In this document: positions 4,267 through 33,852 of the stretch, piece after piece
Position numbering within the stretch: position 1 is the stretch's first letter
Layout: every line of letters starts with the position of its first letter
Position numbers and translations under genes: made by a program
Notes under the pieces: model-generated
Databases searched by the model: none
The model's input: the letters and a program-made list of their open reading frames with translations, nothing else
Told to the model about the DNA's origin: nothing
Virus record (IMG/VR): IMGVR_UViG_3300037245_001585
Span: 1-41,353 of that record
From: a virus
DNA length: 41,353 nt
Direction: 5' to 3' (one strand)

Positions 4267-4530
4267 ATGATAATCGAACTTCCATATATCGAAAGCAACG
4301 AAGAGATAATCGAGGGCGTAGAGCATGATGATTTGATGATTCAGTTCTATAACTTCAGGTATTTGGAAGCTCTCAGACCAAAACTTAAGATATTAAACCT
4401 ATTAGATTTTTATTATTTTGGAATAGATTACTTAACACCGGGAGAAACAAATAACGTATTTTACAGCCAAAAACACGGTAAAGATGTTTTTAGGATTGAC
4501 GTTGGAATTGATAATTTTAGATTGAATTGA
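4267..4530 (+). CDS. Hypothetical protein (87 aa)
   Basis: A small acidic, beta-rich protein with no recognised family. It abuts the preceding peptide gene and is followed one base later by the next start, so it is part of a tight operon of small genes. Confidence 0.5.
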   Translation: MIIELPYIESNEEIIEGVEHDDLMIQFYNFRYLEALRPKLKILNLLDFYYFGIDYLTPGETNNVFYSQKHGKDVFRIDVGIDNFRLN

Positions 4531-4531
4531 T

Positions 4532-4795
4532 ATGGTATGTTCAAATAATTATCCAAAAGATATAGGCGAATGCCAACACAATTTAGGCATGGCAACGGGT
4601 ATGAGCATTGAAAAAGGAGAAGGAAATAGCGGGAACACAATAGAGGTCGGCGACACCTTTACTCTTGAGATGAAAAACAGAGATTGTATTATGGAAATAA
4701 AAGGAGTAAGAAGCGATGAAAAAACAATCTTTATCAAAATAGGCAACAGTCAGGAGTTTGGATTTCCGAAAGACCTTTTTAAATTTAATCAATGA
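4532..4795 (+). CDS. Hypothetical protein (87 aa)
   Basis: A short protein with an N-terminal cysteine pair (VCSNNYPKDIGEC) and a beta-rich C-terminal half (TLEMKNRDCIMEIKGVRS) that could form a small SH3-like barrel. No family is recognised. The stop overlaps the zinc-ribbon gene start. Confidence 0.5.
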   Translation: MVCSNNYPKDIGECQHNLGMATGMSIEKGEGNSGNTIEVGDTFTLEMKNRDCIMEIKGVRSDEKTIFIKIGNSQEFGFPKDLFKFNQ

Positions 4796-16128: not shown

Positions 16129-16310
16129 TGAATGAAAATAAAGAAGTGAAAAAACCTACGGGTAAGCAAATAGGGAAACTACACGTTTCCGATTCTATTC
16201 TAAATCTTCCATATCCCGCATTTGTTAAATACTGGGATGACTCGCATAAGAAGAGCAAGATAACAGGCAAAGAAGCCGCGAAACAATTAGGGATAGAATC
16301 TCCTAAATAA
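16128..16310 (+). CDS. Small basic protein (60 aa)
   Basis: A lysine-rich 60-residue protein (MNENKEVKKPTGKQIGKLHV) translated with the tail tube gene through a one-base overlap. It is followed by a strong terminator. Tail chaperones often follow the tube gene, but this one is shorter than usual, so its function stays open. Confidence 0.5.
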   Translation: MNENKEVKKPTGKQIGKLHVSDSILNLPYPAFVKYWDDSHKKSKITGKEAAKQLGIESPK

Positions 16311-16313
16311 TAC

Positions 16314-16340
16314 AAAGGGGGCAAACACCCCCTTTTATTT
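16314..16340 (+). terminator. Intrinsic terminator after the tail tube genes
   Basis: AAAGGGGG, a CAAACA loop and CCCCCTTTT form a G/C-rich stem with a T-rich end. It splits the late structural operon between the abundant head and tube proteins and the low-copy tail genes, which would lower expression downstream. Confidence 0.8.
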
Positions 16341-16347
16341 TACTCTT

Positions 16348-16767
16348 ATGGAAAAAACAAAAACAGAAATAGTATTAGCAATCGAATCACGATTGAAAGA
16401 GCGCGAGAAGAGGGATACAATCAGGTCGCTAAAAGTTGTGCCGAAAATCACCCGAAAACAATTGGTAAGAATTGCCAATAGGTTAAAGCGTATTTTCGAT
16501 CAGCAATTTGATATTGGTGTTATTGAGTTGAAAGTTTTACGAGCTTCATTTAAAAGTTCGGTAACGCTAGATGAACTCGAACAGTTAGTTGCTAAGACCG
16601 GGAAAATCTACGCTGAGAAATGTGGTACTATCGACAAGATGCTATCAAAGTTTGCAAAAGAAGCGAATAGGATTAACCGAACAAAGAATAATCCTGATAC
16701 GTGGCTTAAAAAGTTAGTTAATGGTTTCAATAAAACAAGCAGCGCAAAGGTCGCAACAGTGGGTTAA
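16348..16767 (+). CDS. Hypothetical tail-region protein (139 aa)
   Basis: A basic, helical protein (ITRKQLVRIANRLKRIFDQQ) that starts just after the terminator. Its end overlaps the following gene by 47 bases. In tail operons this position often holds a tail assembly protein, but no family is recognised and no slippery heptamer for a chaperone frameshift is evident. Confidence 0.5.
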   Translation: MEKTKTEIVLAIESRLKEREKRDTIRSLKVVPKITRKQLVRIANRLKRIFDQQFDIGVIELKVLRASFKSSVTLDELEQLVAKTGKIYAEKCGTIDKMLSKFAKEANRINRTKNNPDTWLKKLVNGFNKTSSAKVATVG

Positions 16768-17814: not shown

Positions 17815-20713
17815 AAAAAGTGTTGACGAAATATTTCGATTAGATGAGGGGTTTCAGAAATCTTCCATATCCTTAAAAGCTATGTTAGATATTTTAGAAA
17901 AGGCAAATACTTTACTTAAAAGTTCAGCTCTAACCACCGAAAGCCTAAATAAAGCACAAAAGCAAACTGCCGAAATATCAACCAATTTAACCAAAATAGG
18001 AGGGCAGTTAGCCAAAGGGCAAGAGAAATTAAAAAATATTGAGATTGAGAGAAATCGTATTCAGGAACAACAAAGGAGGGTATTAGCCAAAAACTTAACC
18101 GTTCAAGAAAAAAGCAATGTAATACTACAAAAAGGTAAACTATTGCTCCAACAAAGAAACAAGGAGGTAAAACAAAATATATTAGCGAATCAGGCACTCA
18201 AAGGCTCATATAATGCCATTAGCATATCATTAAGTAAAAATATAGCCAAATTTAAGGCTATGAGCGAATCGGAGAGAGAAACAAGCAAGAGGGGCAAAGA
18301 ATTAACCGCAACTATTAAACGCCAAGATGCCCAATTAAAAAAGCTTGATGGGCAGATGGGTAGAAGCCAGAGACATGTTGGTGATTATGGTAGAGCAATA
18401 GCCGGAAGTGCAAAAGCATTGTTAGGGGCATTTGGATTAATCGGGGGCGTTGCTGCACTTGCAAGGGTGCTAACATCTTCGTTTAAAACCGTTGTTCAGT
18501 TTGAGAAAAAACAATCCGAATTAGCAGCAGTATTGAGAACGAATACTAAAGGCATTGAGAGGCTAACAAAAGCGTCTTTAGAATATGGTAGAGTAACAAA
18601 ATTTACAGCCTCAGAAGTCTCCACACTCCAAAAAGAACTGGCGAAGCTTGGTTTTACGCAGTCCGAGATAATTTTATCAACAAAAGCCGTTTTAGATTTA
18701 GCCGCAGCAACAGAGAGCGATTTAGGAGAAGCCGCAAAAGTTACAGGAGCAGCATTGAGAGCGTTTAATCTTAGTGCCTCAGAGTCCGAAAGGGTTGCAT
18801 CCGTTCTGGCAGTAGCAACAACAAAAAGTGCATTAGCCTTTGAAGATTATGGCAGTGCATTATCAAATGTCGCCCCGGTTGCGGCAGCGTTTGGATTTTC
18901 AATAGAGGACACAGTCGCACTTTTAGGAACGCTAAGAGATGCGGGATTTGAAGCTAATAAAGCGTCTGTTGCAACTAGAAATATTTTATTAAACCTTGCA
19001 GATTCAGGGGGTGTATTGGCTCAGAAACTAGGAGGTAGCGTAAGGTCGTTTGATGAACTTATTCCGGCATTGATTAAATTAAGAGAAGAGGGAATAAGCC
19101 TAGGTGAATCATTAGAATTAACCGACAAACGTAGTGTTGCAGCATTTAATAGATTCTTAGAAGGGGCGGAAAGTGCCAACAAATTAAGAGATGGATTAAT
19201 AGGTGTTACAGGCGAGCTTGACAGGATGGTTGAGGTGCGTTTGGATAACGTTGCTGGGGATGTTACATTATTAGCAAGTGCATGGGATGGTTTGGTTTTG
19301 GCGATGGGAAAGTCGGGGTTTTTTAGATCTATAATCCAAGGGGCTACTAACGTAGTAAAAGAGTTAACCCCTATCACTAATGAATTTGAGATTTTATTTA
19401 ATAAAATAAAAGAAGGTGAAGAGATTATTAAGGATGTAGGATTTTTTGATTTTCAAGATTTGAGCAAAAAAGCTCAGGATGTAATAAAAGGTTTTAGAGT
19501 CGTTTCGACCGAAGAGTTAAAAGAGGTAAGAATTGCATTTGTAAACGAGTTAAAAGAGATAGGTTTTACAGCAAAAACAGCCTCTGGAATTTGGGGGGCA
19601 TACTTAAAAGATAGGATAGCACAGACGAAAGCCGAAGAAGATGCAGTAATTGCATCTGAAAAGAAAAAACAGGATGCAATAGACAGGACAGCAGTAGAGA
19701 ATAAGGCGGCAGCGAAAAAAACAGCAATAGAAAACGACAAGAAAAATGATAAAATAGCGAGGTCTGATAAGAAGTTAGCCGAAGAACACGCCGATATAAT
19801 AGAAGATGATTTTAACGCCGTTGAAGATTTTGAGACTAAAAAATTAGGGGTTCAAATAAACTCCAATATAGCAAGCCTTGAACAAACTAAAAAGTTTCTA
19901 AAAGAACAGGCTAAATCAGAAGAGGACGATCGCAAGAAAAAAGCAGCCGACAAGAAAAAGGATGAAGATGACGCAAGGGAATTAGAAGAAGAAATATCAC
20001 TCCAAAAAAATGAATTAGCATTTGAAGCCGCAAGTGTAGCGGGTGATATCCTGTTTGCAGGAAAACAGGCACAATTAGCCGAGGACTTAACGCTATTACA
20101 ACAAGAAAAAGAGGCAAGATTAGCAGCCGCAGAGGGAAATGCAGAGGAATTGGAGCGAATAAACAAAGAGTTTGCAGTAAAAGAGAATGCAATCAAAACC
20201 AAGCAAGCCAAGGCGGATAAACAAGCCTCATTAACTCAGGCTATAATTAACACCGCAGAAGCTATAACAAAAGCATTGCCAAATATTCCTTTATCAATTT
20301 TAGCCGCAGCGTTCGGAGCGTTACAGATAGCTAAGATTGCATCAACTCCAATTCCTAAATTTCACAAAGGAACAAAGAACGCACCGGGAACAGGTTTTAT
20401 AGCAGGAGATTCGCCAACTAGTAGGGCGGCAAGCGAATTAGTAATAACAAAAGGTGGCGAAACTTATCTGGCTAAAAAAGATACCTTATTTGTTGGCAAT
20501 AAATTTAAGGGGGCAGAGGTTAAAAACAGCAAAGAAACCGAAGCAATATTAAGAGGCGACAAAGGGGTTAGTAACACAATTGTGAACTTTGATACTTTGG
20601 AGCTACAGAAGTCGAACGCAAAAGGATTTAAGGATTTGAGAAGAACAATTATAGCCACACAAATCAAAAACAACAGAACAGTTTCAAACGCATATAAGCA
20701 ACAGTTTTTATAA
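17786..20713 (+). CDS. Tail tape measure protein (TP901 type)
   Basis: A 975-residue protein. An N-terminal coiled coil (residues 1-195) leads to a hydrophobic segment LLGAFGLIGGVAALARVL (212-229) and a TP901-core domain (about 236-440, KFTASEVSTLQKELAKLGFT). A long charged coiled coil follows (about 620-790), then the typical C-terminal 'FHKGTKNAPGTGFIAGDSP' loop. The protein sets tail length and is ejected with DNA. At roughly 0.15 nm per residue the tail would be near 145 nm, by the usual rule. The start overlaps the previous gene. Confidence 0.88.
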   Translation: MPEIGQIVSKKSVDEIFRLDEGFQKSSISLKAMLDILEKANTLLKSSALTTESLNKAQKQTAEISTNLTKIGGQLAKGQEKLKNIEIERNRIQEQQRRVLAKNLTVQEKSNVILQKGKLLLQQRNKEVKQNILANQALKGSYNAISISLSKNIAKFKAMSESERETSKRGKELTATIKRQDAQLKKLDGQMGRSQRHVGDYGRAIAGSAKALLGAFGLIGGVAALARVLTSSFKTVVQFEKKQSELAAVLRTNTKGIERLTKASLEYGRVTKFTASEVSTLQKELAKLGFTQSEIILSTKAVLDLAAATESDLGEAAKVTGAALRAFNLSASESERVASVLAVATTKSALAFEDYGSALSNVAPVAAAFGFSIEDTVALLGTLRDAGFEANKASVATRNILLNLADSGGVLAQKLGGSVRSFDELIPALIKLREEGISLGESLELTDKRSVAAFNRFLEGAESANKLRDGLIGVTGELDRMVEVRLDNVAGDVTLLASAWDGLVLAMGKSGFFRSIIQGATNVVKELTPITNEFEILFNKIKEGEEIIKDVGFFDFQDLSKKAQDVIKGFRVVSTEELKEVRIAFVNELKEIGFTAKTASGIWGAYLKDRIAQTKAEEDAVIASEKKKQDAIDRTAVENKAAAKKTAIENDKKNDKIARSDKKLAEEHADIIEDDFNAVEDFETKKLGVQINSNIASLEQTKKFLKEQAKSEEDDRKKKAADKKKDEDDARELEEEISLQKNELAFEAASVAGDILFAGKQAQLAEDLTLLQQEKEARLAAAEGNAEELERINKEFAVKENAIKTKQAKADKQASLTQAIINTAEAITKALPNIPLSILAAAFGALQIAKIASTPIPKFHKGTKNAPGTGFIAGDSPTSRAASELVITKGGETYLAKKDTLFVGNKFKGAEVKNSKETEAILRGDKGVSNTIVNFDTLELQKSNAKGFKDLRRTIIATQIKNNRTVSNAYKQQFL

Positions 20714-29549: not shown

Positions 29550-29574
29550 CTTAGTAAAGTGATATTCCTCTCAC

Positions 29575-29603
29575 GCCTCTCAATGAAGCGCACCCGGAGA
29601 GGC
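29575..29603 (+). other. Hairpin upstream of the late terminator
   Basis: GCCTCTC and GAGAGGC pair over 7 bases around a 15-base loop, followed by a short T-rich stretch (CTTTC). It may be a first weak terminator before the stronger one at 29632. Confidence 0.45.
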
Positions 29604-29631
29604 TTTCAAAAACGTATTAATTATTATTAAG

Positions 29632-29662
29632 AAGCCCGGAGCGTCAAGTTCCGGGCTTTTTA
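29632..29662 (+). terminator. Strong terminator between convergent late and accessory genes
   Basis: AAGCCCGGA and TTCCGGGCTTTTT form a long G/C-rich stem with a T-tract. It ends the late operon. The opposite strand also shows a stem followed by CTTCTTAAT, so it may work in both directions for the minus-strand gene that converges on it. Confidence 0.85.
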
Positions 29663-32977: not shown

Positions 32978-33008
32978 TTTGATTATTAGATTATCATTTC
33001 TATCTTTG
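32978..33008 (+). promoter_or_regulatory. Bacteroidetes-type promoter of a small RNA
   Basis: TTTG (32978-32981), 19 bases, and TATCTTTG (33001-33008) match the -33 and -7 consensus exactly. Transcription should begin near 33013-33015. There is no open reading frame directly downstream. Confidence 0.7.
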
Positions 33009-33013
33009 TAATA

Positions 33014-33130
33014 GAGATGGTAAAATTTAATAACATAACTAAGGATAAGAGAACCTACAAGGTAGGCTTCAGATATTATCATCTCTATAAAATGCCCTTT
33101 CGAGTTTTTGAACTTGACTGGGCATTTTTA
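33014..33130 (+). ncRNA. Probable free-standing small RNA (about 115 nt)
   Basis: Between a perfect promoter and a strong terminator lies a stretch with no gene. It folds from a long closing stem in which GAGATGGTAA (33014-33023) pairs with TTATCATCTC (33076-33085); the pairing would extend 3 bases further outward in the DNA. It encloses a smaller hairpin, CCTAC/GTAGG with loop AAG, near 33055-33067. The terminator stem follows directly. This is the layout of a stable small RNA or of a riboswitch with terminator, but the next gene is 300 bases away. I do not recognise the family. Confidence 0.65.
33090..33129 (+). terminator. Intrinsic terminator of the small RNA
   Basis: AAATGCCC (33090-33097) pairs with GGGCATTT (33120-33127), and inside it CGAGTT pairs with AACTTG around a TTTG loop. 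The T-tract TTTTT at the 3' side ends it. Both stems stack into one hairpin. Confidence 0.8.
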
Positions 33131-33426
33131 TGTTCTGATAAATCTGTTATTTTCGGCTAAATTACCTTGTGTAATAGAGTAGGAACAAAAAAGGCTTTCT
33201 TCAAGACTCATGGAAAGTGAAGCAAGTACAAAGTGGATGCTTAGAGAAGGGCTATAACCTATCACGTGAAGTGTAGCGAAAAACCACTAAATTGATAATC
33301 GTTAATAGGCTGTATTATCATGCTCGATGAATGACTCCGATCCTTATTGGATGATTTTATGAGTTTACTTTTTTCTGACTAAGGGGAAAGTATGCTCAAA
33401 TCTTAACCCCTTAACCTTCTGGATGA
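33131..33426 (+). other. Non-coding folded leader before the nuclease gene
   Basis: There is no gene in 296 bases. TACCTTGTGTAATAGAG (from 33163) partly repeats the promoter and start of the small RNA (TATCTTTGTAATAGAG). Hairpins are seen at TGATAAT/ATTATCA (33293-33299 with 33314-33320), ATCC/GGAT (around 33340-33352) and TAAGGGG/CCCCTTA (33380-33413). The pattern suggests a second structured RNA or a long leader. Core motifs of group I or II introns were not found. Confidence 0.45.
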
Positions 33427-33852
33427 ATGAAACACAAACAAAAAGAACACCAACAAAGGATCATAAACCACCGAATTAATAAGAATAAAGCGAAAAGAAA
33501 TGCAACAAAATTAAAACGTGGAATTACAAGAGCCGAAAGGATTGTAAAAAATATCTTAGATGAAGATGGAATAATTTACGATTTTCAAAAACCTTTTCAC
33601 TCTCATAACTGTTGCTATATTGTTGATTTCTATTTTGAAAATACTATTGGTCGAAAATATGTAATTGAATTGGATGGGAAAACACACAACCGATTCACGA
33701 AAATATATAATAAAAACCGTTCATTTTTCCTATATCACAAAATGGAGTGTGCTGTTATTCGATTTGAAAATGAAGATGTATTTAATGATATCGATAAAGT
33801 TATGGAGAAAATCTATAGCTTTAACCCTCGATGTATTGATGATAATTTTTAA
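33427..33852 (+). CDS. DUF559/Vsr-like nuclease, possible free-standing homing-type endonuclease
   Basis: The 141-residue protein has a very basic N-terminus (1-35) and then the DUF559 fold: RAERIVKNILDEDG with E37, YIVDFYF with D67, YVIELDGKTH with E81, D83 and H87 (79-87), RSFFLYHK and AVIRFENED. These residues form a PD-(D/E)XK-like metal site, as in Vsr and related endonucleases. Members occur as free-standing or intron-borne homing nucleases and as repair enzymes. The 300-base structured leader and the adjacent small RNA make a mobile cassette plausible. Confidence 0.7.
   Translation: MKHKQKEHQQRIINHRINKNKAKRNATKLKRGITRAERIVKNILDEDGIIYDFQKPFHSHNCCYIVDFYFENTIGRKYVIELDGKTHNRFTKIYNKNRSFFLYHKMECAVIRFENEDVFNDIDKVMEKIYSFNPRCIDDNF

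Follow-up and report, generated by a model that had tools for sequence, protein, structure and literature searches.

Introduction

The best-known examples of mobile nuclease genes controlled by a leader RNA come from T4-like phages. In the T-even phages, the homing endonuclease genes mobE, segB and I-TevI/II/III are under hairpin control (PMC2988022). A different pairing of RNA and protein is found in C. difficile, where an abiF-type RNA acts in trans to neutralise the AbiF toxin (PMC12373285). Here we describe a locus in a 41,353-base virus record of a tailed phage (this whole stretch of DNA is called the window). The portal protein of this phage has relatives among Bacteroidota phages. The analysis points to an undescribed leader switch that controls a mobile phage nuclease gene. 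We give about an even chance to the reading in which the feature at 33 kb is the 5' module of a structured leader of about 430 nt, belonging to a mobile cassette of homing-endonuclease type (33001-33852) and working as a translation-coupled termination switch.

Results

Signals and folds at 33 kb

The feature had been described, in an initial annotation made from the sequence, as a free-standing small RNA with a perfect promoter and no reading frame. Its signals, TTTG-N19-TATCTTTG, a long closing stem, a CCTAC/GTAGG hairpin and a terminator, are all present where the annotation had placed them (Table 1). The promoter pattern, with TTTG at 32978 and the -7 box at 33001-33008, has its single match in the window here, but a "perfect" promoter is weak evidence when taken by itself, since the full pattern occurs 19 times in seven related or linked phage records against 18 times for the reversed pattern. 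The pattern alone thus proves little. Support for the promoter comes from its position just after the upstream stop codon, from the -7 box that recurs in sister cassettes and from a 16-base identity, CTATCTTTGTAATAGA, between the window promoter region and the region before a gene of the related phage G006. It does not come from the -33 box, which is not conserved across the sister cassettes.

Table 1. Features of the cassette in the window
Feature	Position	Strand	Basis and remarks
Bacteroidota-type promoter (TTTG, 19 bases, TATCTTTG)	32978..33008	+	-7 box 33001-33008; -7 box recurs in sister cassettes
5' module	33011..33088	+	Closing stem 33011-33023/33076-33088, A-rich loop, inner CCUAC/GUAGG hairpin; AUG within stem
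Leader ORF, 47 codons, through stem and terminator	33017..33160	+	Peptide probably not conserved
Intrinsic terminator hairpin and U run	33089..33128	+	Folding; terminators at same place in sister cassettes
3' module of leader, including hairpin before nuclease start (about 33366-33402)	33161..33426	+	Folds; alignment similarity
DUF559 (PD-(D/E)XK/Vsr-like) nuclease, homing-endonuclease type, basic N-terminal tail	33427..33852	+	Domain and PHROGs matches

The stem pairs GAGATGGTAA with TTATCATCTC (33014-33023/33076-33085) and is lengthened to 13 pairs in the minimum-energy fold. The unit of promoter, stem and terminator folds at -40 kcal/mol (z -6.6), a value reached by 0 of 200 shuffles; the stem part by itself has a z of -4.3 and the terminator by itself one of -7.8. 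Among 1031 tiles of 120 nt on the + strand of the window, the unit is the second most unusual fold. The first is the terminator of an abiF-type RNA at 29.6 kb. The third, at 16241-16400, is a strong terminator after a gene ending at 16310. From these signals, an RNA of about 115 nt running from promoter to terminator is plausible, as had been proposed.

The start region of the window feature (33007-33025, TGTAATAGAGATGG) reappears 163 nt downstream, at 33170-33188, as TGTAATAGAGTAGG after a TACCTTGTG box. The repeat might serve as an additional, weaker promoter beyond the terminator.

The abiF RNA (RF03085) lies on the + strand at 29567-29603, scores 38.5 bits against a cut-off of 37 bits and is followed by a strong terminator at about 29627-29661. 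The window record contains no AbiF/Abi_2 gene. By analogy with the C. difficile system, this orphan RNA could be a phage-borne antidote against a host AbiF defence.

Nuclease cassettes in other phages

The nuclease encoded downstream belongs to PF04480, and its PHROGs group is that of intron-encoded/homing endonucleases, from which a homing function is predicted. It is a free-standing gene in an intergenic region. The sole IMG/VR relative found for it, in IMGVR_UViG_3300043172_000590 (L002; record G001), is 71% identical, and that gene is also preceded by a promoter-like site, a stretch of about 120 nt and a terminator. From promoter to ATG, the window has 449 nt and G001 has 452 nt. When the full promoter pattern was combined with a terminator 40-230 nt downstream, four places were found in 287 kb of phage records, and the window and G001 sites were the strongest two.

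A terminator scan revealed a like arrangement in G005 (L036:6962-7413), followed by an HNH nuclease gene; the portal of this phage is 56% identical to that of the window. A BLAST search with the G005 leader led to OP947161.1 (E 9e-42), which carries two cassettes, both before HNH genes. Five cassettes are thus known in four phage records, namely the window, G001, G005 and OP947161 twice, and no further ones were found in the phage records examined. They share a common order: a -7 box, an RNA of about 120-185 nt, a U-tract terminator, 250-300 nt, and a small nuclease. The nucleases have 105-143 aa, and only an HNH or a DUF559 domain was recognised in them, with no recognised RNA-binding domain. 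The leader RNA accompanies DUF559 nucleases in the window and G001 and HNH nucleases in G005 and OP947161, and both versions bear basic tails. A comparison of cassette flanks revealed no flanking gene in common, and insertion at an empty site was not seen.

The association with the "nuclease next door" that the initial annotation had raised is therefore supported by the comparison with other cassettes. The same comparison makes "free-standing" doubtful, because a structured stretch of about 300 nt and the DUF559 gene come next in the window, and a like arrangement stands at a nearly equal distance before nuclease genes in other phages. The RNA of about 115 nt, if it exists, would probably not be free-standing.

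Some features of the related records lie outside the cassettes. OP947161.1 (L050) is labelled as a Rhodobacteraceae phage, yet it bears Bacteroidota-type TATCTTTG boxes, and its portal is the best match to the window portal in the phage collection (31%); the host label may be wrong. In the related phage G006 (L038:8161-8290), a promoter TTTG-N19-TAAATTTG starts 4 nt after a stop codon and is followed by an RNA of about 100 nt and a CCCCGG terminator, with no nuclease after it. As a candidate free-standing phage sRNA, this unit is preferable to the window feature. The related phage G003 carries a Type-P3 twister ribozyme at L032:5795-5862 (RF03154, 50.1 bits).

An open reading frame through the terminator

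The statement that the transcript holds no reading frame does not stand. The ATG at 33017 opens an ORF that runs through both stem and terminator, and each of the five cassettes has an ORF spanning the terminator that begins at the first ATG behind the -7 box (47, 34, 44, 67 and 48 codons). The combined p for this openness is 9e-5, a value that overstates independence because the cassettes are related. Between the leader ORFs of OP947161-1 and OP947161-2, identities at codon positions 1, 2 and 3 amount to 25, 21 and 24 of 44. Codon positions are without bias in the sister leader ORFs and the peptides are not conserved, which suggests that translating itself matters, rather than the peptide. 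In minimum-energy folds, every base of the AUG pairs within the closing stem of the window. In G001 and G005 its pairing is partial or weak, so that full sequestration is seen only in the window.

Two annotated genes of OP947161.1, RPMD05_14 ("membrane protein", L050:4584-4787) and RPMD05_59 (L050:20558-20704), are leader ORFs that overlap the conserved RNA. They may not encode functional proteins.

Homology and covariation of the leaders

The leaders of G005 and OP947161-2 share 77% identity over 289 nt (E 1e-46), and the two OP947161 5' modules share 74% over 194 nt (E 9e-23). The similarity extends across the nuclease families, with 71% identity over 152 nt (E 1e-9) between the leaders of G001 (DUF559) and G005 (HNH). 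Compensating base changes, which had been proposed as a check on the RNA, are found in these homologous leaders. Covariation was assessed on the sister leaders and not on the window closing stem, because no close relative of that stem was found. All 34 of 34 pairs, those of a pseudoknotted helix beside the AUG among them, are kept in both OP947161 5' modules, with five two-sided changes; a slid-partner control gave at most 61% paired positions and zero two-sided changes. In the 3' module (G001, G005 and OP947161-2), six pairs have two-sided changes, the covariation score was reached by 0 of 500 shuffles, and one covarying helix adjoins the nuclease start. These counts come from two sequences for the 5' module and three for the 3' module, with structures chosen on those same sequences, so that the covariation is suggestive rather than final. 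The leaders of the sister cassettes are homologous RNAs, and the covariation suggests selection at the RNA level.

The window leader is more distant. It outscores shuffled copies of every one of the sister leaders (G001, p 0.043; G005, 0 of 300; OP947161-1, p 0.003; OP947161-2, p 0.017), and against random segments of the same phages the p values are 0.035, 0.0225, 0.0075 and 0.0225, respectively. The alignments place the window terminator with that of OP947161-1 and the window -7 box with that of G005. A covariance model built from the two OP947161 5' modules only, at 4530-4718 and 20502-20692, without the window (R1), ranks 33001-33134 first in the window with an E value of 0.17. The corresponding 3' model (R3), made from G001, G005 and OP947161 and likewise free of window sequence, fails to single out the 3' module of the window. 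The window leader is a divergent family member, significant by alignment and not by covariance model alone. Its membership is likely, rather than proven, given the alignment scores, a nuclease with 71% identity and a spacing that agrees with that of G001.

At both gathering and permissive thresholds, Rfam has no match at 33 kb and no family match for any leader copy. BLAST of the phage and plasmid collections returned no match for the window RNA or ORF, a degenerate-pattern search for the leader ORF gave no match, the upstream gene used as a query found no relative, and neither did the window nuclease or portal in the genome collection. A search of IMG/VR with the exact-stem pattern returned a single unrelated match in four copies; it lies within a coding gene, is 63 rather than 72 nt long and was set aside. 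A 46-nt match of the downstream stretch at L036:1966-2011 is antisense in a gene and was judged to be chance.

Discussion

A proposed translation-coupled termination switch

At the sequence level, features of an attenuator, i.e. a promoter, a short ORF and an intrinsic terminator before a structural gene, are present in 5 of 5 cassettes. We infer that transcription would start just downstream of the TATCTTTG box and would mostly end at the terminator to give a short RNA, while read-through of the terminator would produce the nuclease mRNA. The decision probably depends on whether the short leader ORF, with its AUG inside the closing stem, is translated. With the stem closed, the leader ORF would be left untranslated and RNA polymerase would terminate. 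A ribosome that enters and trails the polymerase would cover the terminator arms, and transcription would then continue into the nuclease gene. A second element that may act before the nuclease start is a hairpin that is conserved and covaries in G001, G005 and OP947161-2 and has a similar counterpart in the window; the hairpin is not seen to mask the start codon.

The coupled model has two weak points, namely the partial or weak pairing of the AUG in G001 and G005 and the antiterminator, which was not found. In the window, the fold up to the 5' arm of the terminator shows no alternative pairing of this arm. Ribosome coupling would need no antiterminator helix.

Alternative readings

The feature might be a trans-acting phage sRNA, a regulator or decoy, that merely lies beside a nuclease gene. 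We regard this as unlikely, even though the unit is compact from promoter to terminator with protected ends, G006 has such a unit without a nuclease behind it and the window phage carries an orphan abiF-type RNA elsewhere. Against it stand the ORF that runs through the RNA and the recurrence of this order, at matching spacing, ahead of nuclease genes in other phages. One role suggested initially, control of a phage gene, is without support as far as it would work through base pairing, since complementarity to phage translation starts is within chance (the best duplex has -14.0 and shuffles have a mean of -15.7, p 0.79). The suggested role as a decoy for host defence gained no direct evidence, although the orphan abiF antitoxin-type RNA is present in this phage. 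It is decidedly unlikely that the locus is an ordinary intergenic start and stop, whose likeness to other leaders reflects chance and base composition. The weak sequence similarity of the window and a promoter pattern not rarer than its reversed control fit this view, and it is opposed by the significance of the four-way alignments against both shuffles and genomic segments, by the matching spacing and by the 71% identical nuclease. It is very unlikely that the locus simply encodes a protein of 47 aa, the hairpins being incidental: the ORF suits the regional gene spacing, but its codon score of 0.08 falls within the range of non-coding ORFs as well as that of small genes, no protein relative was found and the sister ORFs lack codon-position bias. 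Moreover, the ORF begins within a few bases of the predicted start of transcription; in B. thetaiotaomicron, only 3.7% of 5' UTRs are under 10 nt (PMC7366714).

Other readings give the RNA a part in the nuclease system. The leader RNA could be a functional partner of the protein (in an RNP, as a guide or antitoxin-like), making the cassette an RNA-nuclease system. The RNA is retained while the nuclease family changes, both the DUF559 and the HNH versions have basic tails, and the order of RNA, terminator and protein resembles that of RCd22-AbiF. Basic tails equally suit DNA binding, however, no guide-like or repeat region was seen, no RNA-binding domain was recognised and the terminator divides the two RNA modules; we give this partnership a poor chance, and nothing found demands it. 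The chance is a little slimmer still that the leader of about 430-500 nt defines a nuclease-associated RNA class, for RNA-bound or RNA-guided homing, held constant across the swap between DUF559 and HNH. Structured RNA with interchangeable nuclease genes would be explained if a homing endonuclease gene were carried by a self-splicing intron or a ribozyme element. We consider this extremely unlikely, as the cassette is inserted between intact genes, has a promoter and terminator inside, and in no copy matches an Rfam intron, even at the permissive threshold; group I and group II introns were rejected for want of a catalytic-core match.

Significance and comparison with known systems

The leader is large, structured and absent from Rfam. 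Cassettes of both nuclease families, which are unrelated, share it, and the phages that carry them have Bacteroidota-type promoters. If the termination-switch reading is true, it would be a portable expression control that lets different nucleases spread without harm to the phage. The alternative meaning would be that the leader RNA itself participates in nuclease function.

The intergenic sRNAs of Bacteroides thetaiotaomicron (PMC7366714) resemble the 5' part of the cassette in their -7 box (TAnnTTTG), transcript of about 100 nt and intrinsic terminator. Unlike them, the window unit overlaps an ORF, and a further conserved RNA module and then a nuclease gene come after it. In the RCd22-AbiF and type III toxin-antitoxin loci (PMC12373285), there is likewise an RNA, a terminator and a downstream protein gene, with the short RNA expected in excess. 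The cassette proteins are DUF559 or HNH nucleases and not AbiF or ToxN, and the leader RNA has neither an abiF match at 33 kb nor a tandem repeat array; this class was rejected because the window nuclease is PF04480 and the window record has no Abi_2. The HEARO/OMEGA RNAs of IscB are also structured RNAs upstream of an HNH-containing nuclease. Here, in contrast, a terminator lies between RNA and gene, the DUF559 version is without HNH and the nucleases are small. With no Rfam match and proteins carrying only HNH or DUF559, a HEARO/OMEGA assignment was rejected.

The T-even homing endonuclease genes are similar to the cassettes in being small phage nuclease genes, several of them intergenic, that carry a leader RNA structure; it limits expression in the T-even genes and may do so in the cassettes. 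The conserved hairpin before the nuclease start recalls, by analogy, the T-even hairpins of mobE, segB and I-TevI (PMC2988022). The T4-type control consists of a hairpin hiding the ribosome binding site together with a late promoter, and the cassettes differ from it: their terminator lies 250-300 nt before the gene and is crossed by the leader ORF, and an RNA of about 430-500 nt with a Bacteroidota-type -7 box accompanies, as one RNA, two unrelated nuclease families.
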